Origin: Methanobrevibacter sp.
GTDB lineage: Archaea; Methanobacteriota; Methanobacteria; Methanobacteriales; Methanobacteriaceae
Length of the DNA stretch: 10,629 nucleotides
Assembly (NCBI GenBank): GCA_031261945.1
Contig: JAISIQ010000011.1
Coordinates: 1-10,629 of the forward strand
Direction: 5' to 3'
Positions 4,289 through 10,629 of the stretch are shown here, piece after piece. How positions within the stretch are numbered: the stretch's first letter is position 1; each line of letters begins with the position of its first letter. Both the position numbers and the translations under genes were made by a program. A model generated the notes under the pieces. The model searched no databases. It was given only the letters and a program-made list of their open reading frames with translations, and was not told the origin of the DNA.

Positions 4289-4966
4289 CTATATTTTACT
4301 TACTAAATCCAATAAAGCAGTTTTAGGGTTTTTAGATAAAATTATTCCAGAAGCTAGCAAAACTCCAGAAGCTCCTAAATCCATAGCTGCTTTCATATCA
4401 TCACCAGTAGCTATTCCTGCACCACAGAGAACTTTTATTTTTTTGTTGATTTCTTTTACTTTATTTACTGTTCCTTCTACTATTTCAGGTTCAGCTTGTG
4501 ATACTGGAATTCCAGAACCAATTAATTCAGGAGGTTCAACAGCTACAAATTCAGGGTTGAGAGTTGCTGCAGCTGCACTTGTTTCAATATTATTTGTACA
4601 TACTACTGAGGTAATTTTTTGTTCTTTAGTTCTTTGTATAACTTCAGCTATATCTGCTAATCTCATTCTTTGTTCTGAGTGATTAAGTAAAGTTCCATTA
4701 ATTCCTGATTCAATCAAAGCTTCCATTAAATTACTTCCAGTATTGCCTCCAGGAGATACTGGATCTATATGTTGAGCAAAAATAGGAATATTGGTTTCAT
4801 CGTTTATCCTAAATATATCTGTAGTTTGAGGGGCTGCCACCATTGTAATTCCAGATTCATAAGAAACACTTTCAAGAGCTTTGGATAATTCTAAAGCTTT
4901 TTCTCCACTTGACTCTAAATAAGTTTTAAAGTTCAATATAACTATAGGTGCTTTAATTTTAGACAT
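4289..4966 (-). CDS. tpiA: Triosephosphate isomerase, archaeal type
   Basis: 225 residues, the short archaeal form (bacterial and eukaryotic enzymes are about 250). It interconverts glyceraldehyde 3-phosphate and dihydroxyacetone phosphate (EC 5.3.1.1) in the cytosol, next to Pgk in gluconeogenesis. Visible active-site residues: Asn12 and Lys14 in LNFKTY, His96 in LLNHSEQRM, Glu144 in VAVEPPELIGSG, then the phosphate-binding GAGI (182-185) and GASGVLLASG (198-207). The ATG at 4966 is fixed by a strong Shine-Dalgarno, AGGAGGG at 4972-4978. It is transcribed away from comA across a 600-base spacer and does not share an obvious operon with pgk. Confidence 0.96.
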   Translation of the reverse strand: MSKIKAPIVILNFKTYLESSGEKALELSKALESVSYESGITMVAAPQTTDIFRINDETNIPIFAQHIDPVSPGGNTGSNLMEALIESGINGTLLNHSEQRMRLADIAEVIQRTKEQKITSVVCTNNIETSAAAATLNPEFVAVEPPELIGSGIPVSQAEPEIVEGTVNKVKEINKKIKVLCGAGIATGDDMKAAMDLGASGVLLASGIILSKNPKTALLDLVSKI

Positions 4967-4971
4967 ATAAT

Positions 4972-4978
4972 CCCTCCT
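4972..4978 (-). promoter_or_regulatory. Strong Shine-Dalgarno of tpiA
   Basis: AGGAGGG on the minus strand, 5 bases before the tpiA ATG. It is the clearest ribosome binding site placed next to a start in the window; most other genes here have weak or no such site. Confidence 0.85.
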
Positions 4979-5392
4979 AATATATAAACGATTTTTATAA
5001 ATTAATTGTATAAATTGTGTAATTCTAATTAATTAAATAATATTATTAACTAATCTTAAATTTATATAATCTTATTATATAATCTTAATATTTAAATCTA
5101 TTATGTAATAAGTTTTATTAGTATTTAATTTAGTATTTAATTTAATTTTTAATTTATTACTAGTATTTTTTTATATAGTATTTTTAGTAGTCTCATTATT
5201 TTTAATAATACTCATATTTTTAATAATGTTTTTAATAGTATTTTTAATAGTATTTTTTAATAAATGTATTATTTATAATATTTAATAATAATATTTTTAA
5301 TTTTAGAATTTTTATAATTAAGATTATTACTTTTAATATTATTATGATTATAATGATTATAATTATTATGATTATAATTAGTCTTTATAAGG

Positions 5393-5400
5393 ATATATAA
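5393..5400 (+). promoter_or_regulatory. Candidate TATA box for comA
   Basis: ATATATAA within GGATATATAAAC. It is preceded by AAGG, a purine-rich BRE-like context, and is followed by less repetitive DNA. If used, transcription would start near 5420-5425 and leave a leader of about 140 bases before the comA ATG. Position and context are the only support. Confidence 0.4.
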
Positions 5401-5420
5401 ACAAGTGGCAAAATGACTAA

Positions 5421-5460
5421 TTTAATTATCTTTAAATAATGAGATAAAGAGATAATTAAA
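5421..5460. promoter_or_regulatory. Inverted repeat in the comA leader/promoter
   Basis: TTTAATTATC (5421-5430) pairs perfectly with GATAATTAAA (5451-5460), with four further bases (TTTA/TAAA) pairing after a small bulge. It sits where transcription would begin from the TATA-like element at 5393. It could be an operator for a dimeric regulator or an RNA hairpin. In such AT-rich DNA, chance is not excluded. Confidence 0.4.
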
Positions 5461-5481
5461 TGAATATTATAAAATATAAAA

Positions 5482-5517
5482 AGATAATTACAATATAAGA
5501 GATAATTACAATATAAT
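5482..5517. repeat. 18-bp direct repeat upstream of comA
   Basis: AGATAATTACAATATA occurs at 5482-5497 and again at 5500-5515, separated by AG. The shared GATAATTA core is also the right arm of the inverted repeat at 5451-5458, giving three copies in 70 bases before comA. Confidence 0.65.
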
Positions 5518-5565
5518 AAGTATGATGAAGATTATAAAAATAAATCTAAAACAAAGAGTGAAATA

Positions 5566-6351
5566 ATGACATTTGATTTTCTTCTTCCAGATAGAGAAAC
5601 TAAGCCTCGTGAAACTGGAATAACAATGGTATTGGACAAAGGATTAGGTTATGAATATGCTAAAGACCTGATGGAAATAAGTGGAAATTATGTAGATTTG
5701 ATGAAATTTGGATGGGGGACAGCTATTATCCAAAATAAAAATATAATCTCAAAAAAAATCAAAATGTATCAATCTTATGATATAATTCCATATACTGGAG
5801 GAACTTTATTTGAAATAGCTTATATAAATGACAAAATAGAAGAATTACTAAAAGAAACAAAAGAATTAGGATTTACAGCTATTGAAATTTCAGATGGATC
5901 TACAGACATGAAAAGAGAGGAGAAATTAGACTTCATTTCTATAGCAAAAGAAGAAGGATTTTATGTCTTATCAGAAGTAGGAAAAAAAGATCTTGAAGAA
6001 GATAATAAAGTAGATTTAAAAAGTAGAATTCAATATATCAAAGAAGAGTTAAAAGTAGGGTCAGATAAAGTTATTATAGAAGCTAGAGAAAGCGGAAAAG
6101 GAATTGGAATATTTGATAATGATGGAAATGCTAAAACAGATGAAATAGACCAAATAATCCAAAAAATAGACAATAATAATCTTATTTGGGAAGCTCCAAA
6201 TAAAAATCAACAAGTTTATTTTGTTAAAAAGTTAGGAACTAACGTAAATCTTGGAAATATCTCCACAAACGATATAATTTCCATCGAAACAATCCGAAGA
6301 GGTCTAAGAGGAGATACAATAGATTTATTAAAAAGATTTAATAAAAGCTAA
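5566..6351 (+). CDS. comA: Phosphosulfolactate synthase
   Basis: 261 residues, full length. It is the first enzyme of CoM biosynthesis from phosphoenolpyruvate: PEP plus sulfite gives (R)-2-phospho-3-sulfolactate (EC 4.4.1.19), in a Mg-dependent TIM barrel. Conserved blocks in order: GITMVLDKGLG (18-28), VDLMKFGWGTA (43-53), YTGGTLFEIAY (76-86), GFTAIEISDGS (102-112), VLSEVGKKD (134-142), VIIEARESGKGIGI (169-182), LIWEAPNKNQQVYF (206-219), NVNLGNI (226-232) and the closing RRGLRGDT (244-251). The ATG is preceded by GAGTGA, a weak ribosome binding site. It is followed after 56 A-rich bases by the UPF0280 gene on the same strand, and comE/comD lie just beyond, convergent. Repeats upstream suggest local control. 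Confidence 0.96.
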   Translation: MTFDFLLPDRETKPRETGITMVLDKGLGYEYAKDLMEISGNYVDLMKFGWGTAIIQNKNIISKKIKMYQSYDIIPYTGGTLFEIAYINDKIEELLKETKELGFTAIEISDGSTDMKREEKLDFISIAKEEGFYVLSEVGKKDLEEDNKVDLKSRIQYIKEELKVGSDKVIIEARESGKGIGIFDNDGNAKTDEIDQIIQKIDNNNLIWEAPNKNQQVYFVKKLGTNVNLGNISTNDIISIETIRRGLRGDTIDLLKRFNKS

Positions 6352-6407
6352 AACTAAAAAAAACATAAAAATAGAAATAAAAATAATAAGAAAAATAATA
6401 AGAAAAA

Positions 6408-7148
6408 ATGTTCAATGCGAAAATAGAGATAAATGAAAGCAAATTAAAAATTGTTAGTGATATAAACACTGATTTTCTTGAAGATTATATTTTAAATGAA
6501 AGAAATCAACTAAATAGCTATTGTAAAAGAAATAGCTATTTTTTTAAATCACATACTCCCGTTGAAGTTGAAGAAGGACCAAAAATAGCTAAAATTATGT
6601 CAAAATCTGGAGAAATAGCTAAAATTGGACCAATGGGGGCTGTTGCAGGGACGATTTCAGAACTTTGTCTTGATCAGTTAATAGCTAAAGGTTCTAGTTA
6701 TTCACTCATTAATAATGGAGGAGATATTGCTTTCATAAATAAAAATAAAGATAAAAATATTATTTGTGGAATATATGCTGGAAATTCAGCTATTTCTGGA
6801 AAAATAGCTTTTAAATTCAAAAAATCTAATAAAAGTTATGGAGTTTGTACATCCTCAGGAACAGTGGGATATTCTTTTAGCTATGGAAAAGCAGATGCTG
6901 TTTCGATTATTGCAAATAAAGCAAGTATTGCAGATGCGCTTGCAACATCAATAGGAAATGCAGTTCAAGGAAAAAAAGAAGAAATAGCTATTGAAAAGGG
7001 ATTAGAAAAAGCAAAAGAATTTAAAAAACATTTTATTGGAGGAATAATTATTGTAAACAATTCAATAGGAACTATTGGAAAAATACCAGAATTAATAGCT
7101 ATTGAAAAAGGAGATTTAAAAGAGTTTTCAAAAGATACAATTAATTAA
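6408..7148 (+). CDS. UPF0280 (COG2122) protein, ApbE-related
   Basis: 246 residues. Blocks of the UPF0280 family are visible: HTPVEVEEGP (49-58), GPMGAVAGTISEL (74-86), SLINNGGDIAF (99-109), CTSSGTVGYSFSYGKADAV (147-165) and ASIADALATSIGN (172-184). The NNGGDI and ADALAT segments resemble ApbE, the flavin transferase, so an ApbE-like fold is likely. The reaction is not established. From memory, COG2122 members were implicated in sulfide assimilation and homocysteine synthesis in Methanosarcina. Four Cys are present (39, 87, 120, 147); Cys147 lies in the conserved CTSSGT block. It sits 56 bases after comA and probably shares its transcript, so a role in sulfur insertion or flavin loading for CoM synthesis is an inference. 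It contains many AATAGCTATT-type motifs. Its stop runs into a TTAA-type repeat. Confidence 0.88.
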   Translation: MFNAKIEINESKLKIVSDINTDFLEDYILNERNQLNSYCKRNSYFFKSHTPVEVEEGPKIAKIMSKSGEIAKIGPMGAVAGTISELCLDQLIAKGSSYSLINNGGDIAFINKNKDKNIICGIYAGNSAISGKIAFKFKKSNKSYGVCTSSGTVGYSFSYGKADAVSIIANKASIADALATSIGNAVQGKKEEIAIEKGLEKAKEFKKHFIGGIIIVNNSIGTIGKIPELIAIEKGDLKEFSKDTIN

Positions 7149-7182
7149 TTAATTAATTAACTAACTAATTAACTAATTAAAT
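7141..7182. repeat. TTAATTAA-type tetranucleotide repeat between convergent genes
   Basis: Reiterated TTAA/CTAA units cover the stop of the UPF0280 gene and most of the gap to the comE stop. The array puts several TAA codons on both strands, giving redundant stops for both convergent genes. Similar four-base reiterations occur in the other gaps of the comDE operon. Confidence 0.7.
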
Positions 7183-7716
7183 TGATTTCATAAACCTGGA
7201 TTTAATTTCTTCAGGACTTAAATCAATTATTCCAACATCTGCATTGCCAGGTTTGATTTTATAATGTATAAATATAGGTTCTTCTATATTTTGAGATAAA
7301 ATAGTTTTAAAATCAATATCATTATAATTATAAACATTTTTAAATCCAGTGGATTTAGCTATTTCTAATAAGTTTGTTTTTTTGCAATATGTTTCTTGAT
7401 TTCCAGTAGATCCATATGCTCCATTATCTAAAGCTATTAAAATAAAATTTTTAAGTTGTTGATTAGCTATTGTTACTAAAGAACCTAAATTCATAAGAAT
7501 TGAACCATCTCCATCTAAAACTATTACTTTTTTATCTTGAGAAAGTGCTAAACCTAATCCTATTGAAGAAGCAAGGCCCATAGAACCTAACATATAAAAA
7601 TTTTTATTTCTATCTTTGATTTCATATAATTCTCTTGATGGAAATCCAATATTAGCTATTACCAGCTCATCAGAGATATATTTTGAAATTTCATTTATTG
7701 CATCATATCTTTTCAT
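7177..7716 (-). CDS. comE: Sulfopyruvate decarboxylase, beta subunit
   Basis: 179 residues. It is the ThDP-binding half of sulfopyruvate decarboxylase (EC 4.1.1.79), which converts sulfopyruvate to sulfoacetaldehyde plus CO2, the step before CoM itself. The ThDP/Mg motif is intact: GDGS (69-72) followed by DNGAYGSTG (97-105), with NLGSLVTIANQ between. The N-terminal LGSMGLASSIGLGLAL (43-58) is also typical of this domain. The enzyme is a heteromer with ComD, encoded 45 bases upstream on the same strand. The ATG at 7716 is preceded by GTGAT, a partial Shine-Dalgarno. The fold is shared with the C-terminal domain of phosphonopyruvate decarboxylase, but the ComD/ComE split together with nearby comA settles the assignment. 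Confidence 0.94.
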   Translation of the reverse strand: MKRYDAINEISKYISDELVIANIGFPSRELYEIKDRNKNFYMLGSMGLASSIGLGLALSQDKKVIVLDGDGSILMNLGSLVTIANQQLKNFILIALDNGAYGSTGNQETYCKKTNLLEIAKSTGFKNVYNYNDIDFKTILSQNIEEPIFIHYKIKPGNADVGIIDLSPEEIKSRFMKSI

Positions 7717-7761
7717 AAAATCACAAACTATTCACAATTAAATAATCAATTAAATAATCAA

Positions 7762-8256
7762 TTACCAGTAATTTATATCTGCTAAAATAGCTATTGGTTT
7801 TTTTAATTCTGTTGATAAATTCCAAGAGTTTCCTACAATTTCTTTTGCTTCATCAGGTGTTTTAATTTGCTTGCAAGAAATGTTTAATATACTGAACAAA
7901 TCAGAAGTTACATTACCCATTGGTACTTGACCTATTATGGGTTCCCCCTCAGTTCCCCTATGACTTATTATCATAACAAGAGGGAATGAATATAATTCAT
8001 ATAATGAAGTTAAAGCATTTATAGAATTTCCAAGCCCAGAATTTTGCATTAAAATAGCTATTTTCTTTCCTGCTAAATATGCACCTGCACAAATTCCTAA
8101 TCCTTCTTCTTCTCTTGTGACGGGAATATGGATGATTTCTTCATCTTTATCTATCTTTATAAGAAGTTCTTTTAGATTAATACACGGAACACTAACTATA
8201 AAATCAATTCCTGCAGATTTTATTCCTTGATAAATAGCTTCTGTACTGTTTAACAT
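7762..8256 (-). CDS. comD: Sulfopyruvate decarboxylase, alpha subunit
   Basis: 164 residues. It forms the PYR (pyrimidine-binding) half of the ThDP enzyme and pairs with ComE to build the active site at the subunit interface. Visible blocks: VSVPCINLKEL (21-31), VTREEEGLGICAGAYLAG (46-63), where a Glu is expected to activate ThDP, MQNSGLGNSINALTSL (70-85), LVMIISHRGTEGEP (93-106) and QVPMG (110-114). The ATG at 8256 has no strong ribosome site. It lies between the HdrA-like gene (72 bases upstream) and comE (45 bases downstream), all on the minus strand, so one transcript is likely. The two gaps consist of short TAAT/CAAT-type reiterations. Confidence 0.94.
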   Translation of the reverse strand: MLNSTEAIYQGIKSAGIDFIVSVPCINLKELLIKIDKDEEIIHIPVTREEEGLGICAGAYLAGKKIAILMQNSGLGNSINALTSLYELYSFPLVMIISHRGTEGEPIIGQVPMGNVTSDLFSILNISCKQIKTPDEAKEIVGNSWNLSTELKKPIAILADINYW

Positions 8257-8267
8257 AATATCATCAT

Positions 8268-8328
8268 TAATAAATAAATAATAACTAAATAAATAAGTTT
8301 ATTGATTGATAAATAATTGATTAATTGA
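8268..8328. repeat. AT-rich short-repeat spacer between hdrA-like gene and comD
   Basis: Reiterated AAATAAATA and TTGATTGAT/TTGATTAAT units fill the gap. No terminator hairpin or promoter element is distinguishable, so read-through from the hdrA-like gene into comD is plausible. Confidence 0.5.
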
Positions 8329-10629
8329 TTAATTAATAGCTCTTATTTTCTCATCAAAATCTCTGAATTTTTCAGCAAGCCCTGAAAAATAAGGAATATA
8401 AACTTTAGAGAATTGGATTCTTTCTGGATCGATTCCTTGTTTTTTAATATATTTTTTAAGCTTTTTAACTTTGTTTTCTACTTTTTCATACATTAAATCA
8501 CCAGGATATTCTCCAATAAATACACCATCAGCTCCATTTTTGAGAGCGTAGATTATATGTTCAGGTGTTACCCTATTTACTGAATGAACTTTAATAATAT
8601 GTATAGAATCTGGATAAGACATTCTATTTATTCCAATATTATCTGCAGCAGTATAACCTACTTGATCCAAGAAGACTAATATTCTCTTTTCATCTGGTGA
8701 TTTATCTTTTAGCATACCCTCAATTGTTGCATAGATTTTTTCATTTATATTTCCTTGAATTGTGATTGCAGATGATTTACAAGCAGTTAAACATTCTCCA
8801 CAACCAGAACAAGCCATAGGATCTATAAAGATATTCTTATCCATAATAGAAATAGATTTATGCTTACATATATTTATACACTCCCCACAGCTATTACATT
8901 TATCATAATCTACTTCTGCAATAAATGGTTCTATTTCAAGACCATTATTCATTAATTCAAAAACTTTTGCAGAAGCTGTGTTTGATTGCATGATACTTTC
9001 TGTAATATCTTTTGGTCCTTGAGCAGTTCCACAAACAAAAGCTCCTTTTATGTCAGTTGCAACAGGTTTTATTTTTGGATGAGCTTCTTTTACAAAAAAA
9101 TCTTCTGTTAAACTCATATTTAAAGTTTTAGCTATTTCTTTTGTACCTTCTGAAGCTTCCATAGCTAATGATAAAACAACCATATCTGTTTCAACTTCAA
9201 GAAACTCTTTTGTAAGTGTGTCTTCTACTTTAACTACTAAATTATCATTTGAATTTTTAACAACCTCTCCAGGTCTTCCTCTGATTAACCTAACACCATT
9301 ATCTTGACAATGTTTATAATATTTTTCATACATTCCGGTAGTTCTCATATCAGTATAACATATAATAACATCAGTATCAGGATATTTATGTTTAATAATA
9401 TTAGCATTTTTTAAAGCAACCATACAACATACTTTAGAACAATATTTATGAGCATTGGGCTTCATATCACGAGAACCAACACACTGAATCATGACAACTC
9501 TTTTAGGAACTTTGTCTGAGTTAGGAATTCTTAATTCTCCTTTAGTTGGACCATTAACACCTAAAATACGAGCAAGTTCATTTTGAGTTATTACTTCTTC
9601 ATATCTATCATGCCCATATTCTGGTCTAAGTTTCGGATCAAAGATTTTATGCCCAGTAGCTACAATGACAGAACCTACATTAAGTGGAATTAGCTCTTTT
9701 TCATCATTTAGATTAATTGCACCAACATTACATGCTTTTACACATTTTTCACATTTTTTACAATTATCAATATCAATAGTATATGCATCAGGATAACTTT
9801 GAGAAAAAGGTTTATAAATAGCTTTTTTATAAGACATATTTTCATTAAAGCCATCTAATATTTCAACAGGACATGCTTCATTGCATTTACCACAAGAAAT
9901 ACATAAAGATTCATCAACATAGCGAGGTTTTTTTTCAAGAAGGAGATTGAATGTACCTGACCTTCTTGTTCCACTAATTACCTTAGTATTAGTTAAAATT
10001 TCAATATTTTCATTCCAAACTGTTTCATTAATAAGTGGATTAAGTAAACATAAACTACATTCTTCAGCTATTTTAACAGGAGAAAATACTTTACCTATTT
10101 TAACCATATTCCCCCCGATGGTTGGTTCTTCTTCAATAATATATGTTTTCATTCCACCTTTAGCTATTGATAATGCAGCACTAATTCCAGAAATTCCACC
10201 ACCAATTACAGCAACACTTTCAGGAGTTTGACATATAATTGGATTAACTGGATGAGATTCCTTAACTTTTTCAATAGAAGCATTAATAAGAGAAATAGCT
10301 TTAGAATTAATTTTAGAATTATTATTTATATCATTATTAATAGTAGAATTGATATTGGAATGGATATTAGAATTGATATTAGAATTAATAGTAGAATTGT
10401 TTTTATCATCTTCATTACCATGAACCCAAGAACATTGCTCCCTTAAATTAGCTATATCCATTAAATAAGGATTTAAAGGATTTACATAATCTTGGAATGT
10501 TTTTTCATGAGATATTGGAGAACAAGCAGCTATTACAACCCTATCAAGATCATTATTAACAATGCCATCCCTAATAGCTTTTTTTCCATTAATCGAACAA
10601 AGATTTTCAAATTCTTCAACTATATCTGC
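8329..10629 (-). CDS. HdrA-like iron-sulfur flavoprotein with cysteine-free MvhD-like C-terminus (open at right edge)
   Basis: 766 residues are visible, and the frame is open to 10629, so the N-terminus lies outside. The ATG at 10461 is internal: the 56 codons before it encode HdrA sequence (VVIAACSP, then LNPYLMDIANLREQCSW). Numbering from that Met: FAD-binding GGGISG (87-92), ECSLC (134-138), CVGSRD (327-332) and YCSKVCC (340-346). Four ferredoxin-like CxxCxxCxxxC motifs start at Cys187, 234, 522 and 551. Residues 593-706 align by eye with MvhD/FlpD (RMSYP, NGADGVFIG, PGDLMY), but all its Fe-S cysteines are replaced; no Cys occurs after 561. Residues 15-58 are an Asn/Ile/Ser-rich insertion. 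HdrA is the electron-bifurcating subunit of heterodisulfide reductase. This fused, degenerate form next to comDE is more likely a paralogue, perhaps an electron donor for CoM synthesis (inference). The role is uncertain; the family is not. Confidence 0.9.
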   Translation of the reverse strand, partial: ADIVEEFENLCSINGKKAIRDGIVNNDLDRVVIAACSPISHEKTFQDYVNPLNPYLMDIANLREQCSWVHGNEDDKNNSTINSNINSNIHSNINSTINNDINNNSKINSKAISLINASIEKVKESHPVNPIICQTPESVAVIGGGISGISAALSIAKGGMKTYIIEEEPTIGGNMVKIGKVFSPVKIAEECSLCLLNPLINETVWNENIEILTNTKVISGTRRSGTFNLLLEKKPRYVDESLCISCGKCNEACPVEILDGFNENMSYKKAIYKPFSQSYPDAYTIDIDNCKKCEKCVKACNVGAINLNDEKELIPLNVGSVIVATGHKIFDPKLRPEYGHDRYEEVITQNELARILGVNGPTKGELRIPNSDKVPKRVVMIQCVGSRDMKPNAHKYCSKVCCMVALKNANIIKHKYPDTDVIICYTDMRTTGMYEKYYKHCQDNGVRLIRGRPGEVVKNSNDNLVVKVEDTLTKEFLEVETDMVVLSLAMEASEGTKEIAKTLNMSLTEDFFVKEAHPKIKPVATDIKGAFVCGTAQGPKDITESIMQSNTASAKVFELMNNGLEIEPFIAEVDYDKCNSCGECINICKHKSISIMDKNIFIDPMACSGCGECLTACKSSAITIQGNINEKIYATIEGMLKDKSPDEKRILVFLDQVGYTAADNIGINRMSYPDSIHIIKVHSVNRVTPEHIIYALKNGADGVFIGEYPGDLMYEKVENKVKKLKKYIKKQGIDPERIQFSKVYIPYFSGLAEKFRDFDEKIRAIN
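10339..10398. repeat. 12-bp tandem repeats inside the hdrA-like gene
   Basis: Five 12-base units in a row on the plus strand: AATAGTAGAATT, GATATTGGAATG, GATATTAGAATT twice, and AATAGTAGAATT. On the coding strand they give the NSTI/NSNI/HSNI residues of the low-complexity insertion. Because the unit is a multiple of three, copy changes keep the reading frame. Confidence 0.85.

Follow-up and report, generated by a model that had tools for sequence, protein, structure and literature searches.

In many Methanobacteriaceae, a second set of heterodisulfide reductase genes (hdrCBA) is found within the neighbourhood of the genes for coenzyme M (CoM) synthesis. The window considered here is a whole contig of 10,629 nucleotides (JAISIQ010000011.1, C14 in our numbering) of Methanobrevibacter sp. 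GCA_031261945.1, a genome of 1.15 Mb in 196 contigs which is 67% complete. It carries the hdrA gene of this set beside comA, comD, comE, and a UPF0280 gene. The enzymes are ordinary and their company is unusual. The evidence consists of what the genes are, of a second hdrCBA set with ties to methanogenesis marker 16 (MMP16), comA, and comDE, and of the joint absence of these genes, one joint duplication, and a group of residue changes. The second HdrABC very probably belongs to the CoM-synthesis module. That it supplies electrons to the MMP16 step is a proposal on which we are evenly divided, and we infer the electron transfer itself.

The 2025 paper on MMP16 (PMC12068725) states, in the part consulted, that the sulfur species and the electron number of the last step of CoM synthesis are unclear, and a 2018 review holds that the role of HdrA1B1C1 in Methanosarcina needs validation. 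A link between the MMP16 step and HdrA1B1C1 would offer a single testable explanation for both. If true, it also bears on gut methanogens, among which there are both producers of CoM and species that rely on its supply.

The CoM Genes and the HdrA of the Window

The genes of main concern are the following:
5566..6351, + strand: comA, phosphosulfolactate synthase (TIGR03849, 329.4 bits, cut-off 280; PF02679, 319.6 bits)
6408..7148, + strand: UPF0280/COG2122 protein with ApbE-like fold, proposed sulfur carrier (NF003321, 256.6 bits, cut-off 262)
7177..7716, − strand: comE, sulfopyruvate decarboxylase beta subunit (TIGR03846, 254.5 bits, cut-off 221.5)
7762..8256, − strand: comD, sulfopyruvate decarboxylase alpha subunit (TIGR03845, 213.3 bits, cut-off 148)
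8329..10629, − strand: hdrA of the second HdrCBA set, truncated at its 5′ end by the contig edge (NF041891, 1340 bits, cut-off 1300)
8335..8682, − strand: cysteine-free MvhD/FlpD-like domain of this HdrA, residues 650-765 (PF02662, 101 bits)

ComA, ComD, and ComE each score above the curated NCBIfam cut-off. The first-pass annotation had comA and the UPF0280 gene facing comE, comD, and an HdrA-like gene, and all five genes lie where it placed them. On the minus strand hdrA is upstream of comD, with gaps of 72 bp between hdrA and comD and 45 bp between comD and comE. The shared strand and short gaps are consistent with one transcript for hdrA, comD, and comE. A scan of positions 4900-10629 with bacterial consensus patterns, which are of little use for archaea, gave 41 promoter-like sites (42.3 expected) and 2 terminator-like sites (1.3 expected).

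The window HdrA exceeds the cut-off of its family (hdrA_Methbact) despite truncation. About 30-45 N-terminal residues are missing in comparison with homologues, the window ending where the contig ends. The protein consists of a core binding flavin adenine dinucleotide (FAD), ferredoxin domains, and the C-terminal MvhD-like domain. Between positions 10301 and 10399, after the N-terminal domain, an Asn/Ile/Ser-rich insertion arises from a 12/24-base repeat; it is absent from the 14 other proteins aligned.

The genome encodes another HdrA (C107:4085-6064, 659 residues, 41% identity), which ends ahead of the C-terminal domain carried by the window protein. The solved HdrA of PDB 8rvu, which we take to be from M. 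marburgensis, likewise has 659 residues. The link proposed in the first pass would have been in doubt if the window protein were the only HdrA of the genome; since a second, canonical-type HdrA is present on C107, this objection does not apply.

Canonical-type HdrA (open reading frames of 658-683 residues, 40-41% identical to the window protein) is the sole type in 12 genomes of groups f2 and f3. Window-type HdrA, of about 770 residues, occurs in at least 106 of the 149 genomes of the order and in none of f2 or f3; these counts are among the matches listed, and fragments in G080, G119, and G145, none of them at least 90% complete, were possibly missed. On NF041891, the canonical-type protein of the same genome scores 637 bits against the cut-off of 1300. 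What this model, named for the HdrA of Methanobacteriaceae, captures is the CoM-linked paralogue.

The Second hdrCBA Set and Its Neighbours

Among 18 loci (L022-L039) with 19 copies of window-type hdrA, a gene of one family encoding 310-357 residues adjoins all 19 copies, and a further gene of about 200 residues adjoins 18 of them. In G085 these neighbours exceed the cut-offs of NF041780 (HdrB) and NF041890 (HdrC), respectively. In relatives, a second hdrC-hdrB-hdrA set ends with window-type hdrA. The first-pass description of a four-cluster flavoprotein needs correction: the protein is not a bare one, as it carries the C-terminal FlpD/MvhD-like domain and has hdrC and hdrB directly upstream in relatives.

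In the loci inspected in g2, g3, g5, and g15, a gene of about 420 residues lies between comA and hdrC. The G085 copy matches TIGR03287, methanogenesis marker 16, with 542 bits (cut-off 364), and the commonest order is comA-mmp16-hdrC-hdrB-hdrA. In the genome of the window, contig C25 bears MMP16 (1818-2996, + strand), hdrC (448-1056, − strand), and, truncated at the left edge of the contig, part of hdrB (1-233, − strand). We infer the order comA>, UPF0280>, <comE, <comD, <hdrA, <hdrB, <hdrC, mmp16>, since the pieces on C25 lie across a contig gap. In G059 a single contig shows <comE, <comD, <UPF0280, <hdrA, <hdrB, <hdrC, a ThiF-family gene>, and mmp16>, with comA elsewhere. G033 provides a third arrangement: an hdrC-hdrB-mmp16 group apart from the main loci of mmp16 and hdrCBA in this genome. 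In G086 the unit mmp16-hdrC-hdrB-hdrA occurs twice in tandem (L057).

In the linkage survey, covering the 149 genomes, genes within 20 kb of window-type hdrA were counted as near. ComE was kept in 127 of 131 matching genomes, after weak decarboxylase reading frames of about 375 residues and the weakest matches had been dropped; the ComE counts, like those of PF01837 below, are among the matches listed. MMP16 is near in 65 of the 104 Methanobacteriaceae genomes with both genes, and ComA likewise in 65 of 104; ComE is near in 53 of 101 and UPF0280 in 55 of 99. By the first pass, absence of the linkage in close relatives would speak against its proposal, and here the picture is mixed. HdrA is near ComE and UPF0280 in the own genome and in members of g2, g3, g5, g9, g12, and g15. 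It is near neither in the congener G057 or in g4, nor in genomes of g6, g7, g10, g11, g13, and g16, although part of these assemblies are too broken up for a judgement. Among the best 80 of 114 HdrB loci, 44 have MMP16 and 40 have ComA; the HdrB loci of g4, inferred to be Methanosphaera, are without any CoM gene. The linkage exceeds chance, as it spans several genera and occurs in more than one arrangement; most of the linked genomes belong to one genus.

The gene spacing, which depends on start codons chosen by the script, matches that of a tight operon. The median distance is 13.5 bp for comA-mmp16 (n = 40; 31 at most 60 bp), 9 bp for mmp16-hdrC (n = 43; 38), −4 for hdrC-hdrB (n = 74; 63), and −4 for hdrB-hdrA (n = 67; 56).

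Some further neighbours were observed. A ThiF-family (E1-like) gene adjoins hdrC or mmp16 in G059, G046, and the second copy of G033 (in this order, L053:1948-2700, L055:240-992, and L051:10491-11243), where sulfur-carrier activation is possible. MMP16 adjoins thiI, a further sulfur-transfer neighbour, in one genome each of g18, g6, and g7 and in G057 (L048, L050, L052, L054); in L048 alaS stands on its other side. A Helarchaeota contig (L138:8178-10933) carries hdrC-hdrB of the window type beside two paralogues of about 400 residues, which resemble dehydratase components, and the same genome has an MMP16 match above cut-off.

Joint Presence and Absence

Among 78 Methanobacteriaceae genomes at least 90% complete, 67 have both window-type HdrA and MMP16, 1 has HdrA only (G050), 2 have MMP16 only (G039, G072), and 8 have neither. 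For all 137 Methanobacteriaceae the figures are 104, 2, 6, and 25. In each of the 8 genomes with neither there is a single HdrA match, and its E-value is that expected for canonical-type HdrA. One of them, G113, was tried as a case of ComA without MMP16 and Hdr and rejected: its contig ends within the comA end, so that the absence is probably an assembly gap and hence uninformative.

G026 and G067 have lost comA-mmp16-hdrCBA and UPF0280, with the flanks still in place: cofH-comD-comE at one end, UPF0058 and its neighbour at the other. Starting from the gene order of G034, a single deletion would do for this loss; the order of G085 would need two, because UPF0058 lies there between UPF0280 and comA. 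Co-absence of adjacent genes in related genomes supports a shared role and does not prove it.

It has been reported that M. ruminantium M1 needs CoM and is without comADE (PMC10658910). A 2026 survey states, in the part consulted, that CoM is made by almost every species of the phylum (PMC13135261); therefore, the number of CoM-less genomes found here may surprise.

Residues of HdrB, MMP16, and HdrA

The HdrB sites were counted in relatives because the own HdrB is a fragment of 77 residues. The first site reads CC in 90 of 93 proteins and SC in 1, and was not found in 2. At the second site, the first cysteine of the CCG motif, which we take to be the HdrB cluster site, is missing in 92 of 93 (T/H/S-CG), Methanosarcinaceae included; the solved canonical HdrB has CCG there, and G291 has TCG. 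The CCG motif is quoted in PMC5296606. L030 of G035 holds a divergent second hdrCBA set, in which the CCG of the second HdrB site is kept and the first CC is not. Canonical HdrB was not found in the own genome, which is uninformative at 67% completeness.

In MMP16 of the clade of the window, cysteines of the first 4Fe-4S motif are lost, which makes an outside electron source at least plausible. The MMP16 profile, searched against the PDB, matched ferredoxin-type stretches solely.

Window-type HdrA shares with flavin-bifurcating HdrA the FAD domain, the Fe-S ligands, and equivalents of K409/E356, the residues named for bifurcating HdrA in PMC12054007. The cluster cysteines are invariant (alignment A1). 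The lysine is present in 78 of 81 HdrA, and the acidic residue is E in 65 and D in 7, and was not found by pattern in 9. The C-terminal domain was checked with a motif that we take to mark the MvhD cluster ligands: cysteine stands at the ligand positions in 0 of 14 window-type proteins aligned. Among 80 long HdrA (of 89 collected), this region has no cysteine in 59, one in 19, two in 1, and seven in 1, which is bacterial.

UPF0280 and Sulfur Delivery

The best NCBIfam model for the UPF0280 protein, NF003321 (PRK04334), lies just short of its cut-off. The "ApbE fold" named in the first pass is borne out: the AlphaFold model (mean pLDDT 87.8) matches DVU1097 (PDB 2o34, E 3e-17) and then ApbE structures, and the profile match to 2o34 has E 8e-31. 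COG2122/MA1715 is reported to be needed for efficient sulfide use by the L-aspartate semialdehyde sulfurtransferase (L-ASST), an enzyme of COG1900 like MMP16 (PMC12068725, PMC5764234).

By PF01837, most Methanobacteriaceae genomes have no COG1900 members other than MMP16-type proteins. A longer member occurs in f2, f3, g7, g8, g10, g14, g16, g17, and one g4 genome, and 21 genomes with a long, high-scoring COG1900 reading frame were labelled L-ASST by this analysis. Of the 71 good Methanobacteriaceae genomes that lack L-ASST, 61 have UPF0280 together with MMP16 and 7 have neither. The 3 discordant genomes are G113, G043, and G128, with comA at a contig end in G113 and G043. UPF0280 thus follows MMP16 in Methanobacteriaceae, which fits sulfur delivery to the CoM synthase.

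Evidence from Methanosarcinales

In Methanosarcinaceae archaeon B4-05 (L142), cysteate synthase, comDE, MMP16, a gene for an MreA-family regulator, hdrA, hdrC (found by tblastn, E 1e-49), and hdrB are neighbours. Of 159 Methanosarcinales genomes, 36 have this HdrB, 92 have MMP16, and 35 have both. In G291 a distance of about 190 kb separates the two loci. In G291 and G304 an MreA-family gene lies within about 4 kb of the hdrA1C1B1 locus and also of the cs-comDE-MMP16 locus (L161, L162, L165, L166); in G163 it is near the hdr locus only.

MMP16 is reported as the primary CoM synthase (ComF) of Methanosarcina acetivorans, and in its deletion mutant, starved of CoM, the expression of cs, comDE, ssu, and hdrABC is up (PMC12068725). 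Deletion of hdrABC in turn raises the genes of CoM and coenzyme B (CoB) synthesis (PMC11619418). In this mutant total CoM is 16.7 against 28.2 nmol/mg (41% less), and the reduced fraction is 92.6 against 82.3% (PMC12713407). With cysteine as sole sulfur source, the mutant doubles in 27.8 h versus 15.3 h (PMC9963511). A pool which is smaller yet more reduced is, in our view, more easily read as poor synthesis, and the mutant data partly fit a biosynthetic role.

Proposed Role and Alternatives

Electron supply to MMP16 is ranked first among the possible roles, disulfide recycling next, and sulfite formation third. The proposed route would begin with ComA and later enzymes, yielding sulfopyruvate, which ComDE would convert to sulfoacetaldehyde. 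UPF0280/COG2122 would pass sulfur to MMP16 (ComF), by which the aldehyde would be swapped for a thiol, a step that takes 2 electrons if the sulfur is sulfide and 4 if it is S0 (PMC12068725). Low-potential electrons would enter at HdrA via its FAD and ferredoxin domains, and not via the [2Fe-2S] cluster of MvhD, whose ligands are missing. They would then run through HdrC and leave at HdrB, with its altered second cluster site, for MMP16 or for a persulfide or disulfide intermediate. The idea that HdrA or UPF0280 carries out the thiolation was set aside in favour of MMP16 (PMC12068725). The sulfur/redox module for CoM synthesis suggested in the first pass is therefore retained as far as the module goes, given the MMP16/ComF neighbour and the own HdrB and HdrC in many relatives; its thiolation is not supported in the form given, the thiolating enzyme being MMP16, of COG1900.

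Several points weigh against electron supply to MMP16. The joint absence loses force through linkage and kinship, as one deletion removes several genes. This Hdr is missing from the 12 genomes of f2 and f3 and from G039 and G072, and 13 of these 14 have MMP16; therefore, this Hdr is not needed for CoM synthesis everywhere. MMP16 is not near window-type hdrA in 39 of 104 genomes, lying far off on the same contig in 6 and on another contig in 33, where real separation and contig breaks are mixed. In Methanosarcinales, HdrB and MMP16 are within 20 kb in 1 of 36 genomes with this HdrB, namely B4-05. CoB was unmeasurable in the hdrABC deletion (PMC12713407), which a role in CoM alone leaves unexplained, and overexpression of com genes gave no rescue on methanol or methanol plus acetate. 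The authors of these studies, moreover, ascribe the phenotypes to slower heterodisulfide reduction.

The last point agrees with the foremost alternative, in which the second HdrABC is an isozyme reducing CoM-S-S-CoB or CoM-S-S-CoM, and the clustering reflects upkeep of the CoM-SH pool. Homology speaks for it, the families NF041890, NF041780, and NF041891 all being named ferredoxin:CoB-CoM heterodisulfide reductase, as does the published reading of M. acetivorans HdrA1B1C1 as a heterodisulfide reductase. Two results both favour recycling and count against electron supply: CoM alone did not restore the hdrABC deletion and CoM plus acetate did (PMC9963511), and Escherichia coli with an MMP16 homologue converts sulfoacetaldehyde to CoM (reported in PMC12068725). 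However, genomes without MMP16, which still need CoM for methane, are mostly without this set and keep canonical-type HdrA; a pure recycling defect predicts otherwise than the fall in total CoM with a rise in its reduced fraction; and the second CCG site of HdrB has lost its first cysteine almost throughout. Recycling is rather unlikely as the main role.

sHdr complexes of sulfur-oxidising bacteria make sulfite from persulfide-type sulfur. By analogy, the second HdrABC might oxidise the persulfide carried by UPF0280 to sulfite for ComA, or for the cysteate synthase of Methanosarcina, which also uses sulfite. The tight link to comA in one arrangement and the cysteate synthase at the B4-05 locus agree with such a function. 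Yet mmp16 stands between comA and hdrC, the second copy in G033, hdrC-hdrB-mmp16, has no comA, and an oxidant would be required in a strongly reducing cell. Sulfite formation is improbable.

Least probable is an inherited chromosome segment of gut Methanobacteriaceae without shared function, which the many genera lacking linkage and the preponderance of g3 (one genus, with 54 of the 65 MMP16-linked genomes) would suit, and against which the different arrangements, the duplicated unit, the link in another archaeal order, and the overlapping genes all argue.

Electron supply to MMP16 could be extended further. On this tentative and rather doubtful generalisation, the "second" soluble Hdr of Methanobacteriaceae and Methanosarcinales would primarily provide the reductase arm for making cofactor thiols (CoM, perhaps CoB), heterodisulfide reduction not being its primary task, MMP16 together with an HdrABC of the HdrA1B1C1 type would be the working CoM synthase, and the NCBI name hdrA_Methbact would be misassigned.

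As for earlier reports, genes often found beside CoM genes are, according to the main text of PMC12068725, those for an ATPase, a GTPase, and a COG2000 protein, hdrABC not being named there. Neither "biosynthesis" nor "Methanobrevibacter" occurs in the main text of PMC12054007, a survey of HdrA, and the consulted part of PMC13135261 places electron-bifurcating HdrABC in all genomes with the second set unmentioned. A search of open-access titles and abstracts, with subscription papers and preprints outside its scope, did not find the linkage of hdrABC with CoM synthase.

Other Genes of the Window

The remaining genes of the window are the following:
End of a hydroxyethylthiazole kinase gene, and thiE
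PGK, − strand
Pseudomurein-binding/transglutaminase protein, − strand
Triose-phosphate isomerase, − strand

In PGK, positions 1384-1475 encode a repeat-containing stretch rich in Asn and Lys.

Comparison with Known Systems

The canonical MvhADG-HdrABC complex (PDB 5odc, 8rvu) shares with the window set the FAD domain of HdrA, the invariant Fe-S cysteines, the equivalents of the Lys/Glu pair, and the HdrB and HdrC partners. Unlike it, window-type HdrA has an MvhD-like domain fused to it from which the cluster cysteines are gone, and window-type HdrB has TCG, HCG, or SCG at the second site where canonical HdrB has two CCG motifs. Furthermore, the window set is a separate gene set tied to CoM genes.

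HdrA1B1C1 of M. acetivorans is similar in HdrB, the proteins of G085 (536 bits) and B4-05 (508 bits) exceeding the NF041780 cut-off of 450, as does one protein of the M. acetivorans control genome. The Methanosarcinaceae sets also share the TCG site and a C-terminal HdrA extension without the MvhD ligand motif. They differ in gene order, which is A-C-B in Methanosarcinaceae and C-B-A in Methanobacteriaceae. The window HdrA is 46% identical to two Methanosarcinaceae HdrA, the M. acetivorans protein being outside this comparison. On NF041778 (cut-off 1400) the window HdrA reaches 750 bits and that of B4-05 1342, both below, and HdrC of G085 has 171 bits on NF041779, below its cut-off of 350. A further difference is that HdrA1B1C1 has been published as a methylotrophic heterodisulfide reductase.

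With HdrA2B2C2 of M. acetivorans, the window set has in common the HdrA-MvhD fusion architecture. A [2Fe-2S] cluster is predicted in the MvhD domain of HdrA2, with which the iron content agrees (PMC5296606); in window-type HdrA the ligand cysteines are gone.

The L-ASST system, formed by a COG1900 protein, a NIL/ferredoxin protein, and COG2122, resembles the module proposed here in that a COG1900 protein thiolates an aldehyde reductively, with COG2122 and an Fe-S electron source. It differs in that the COG1900 member would here be MMP16, the product CoM, and the proposed electron source HdrABC.

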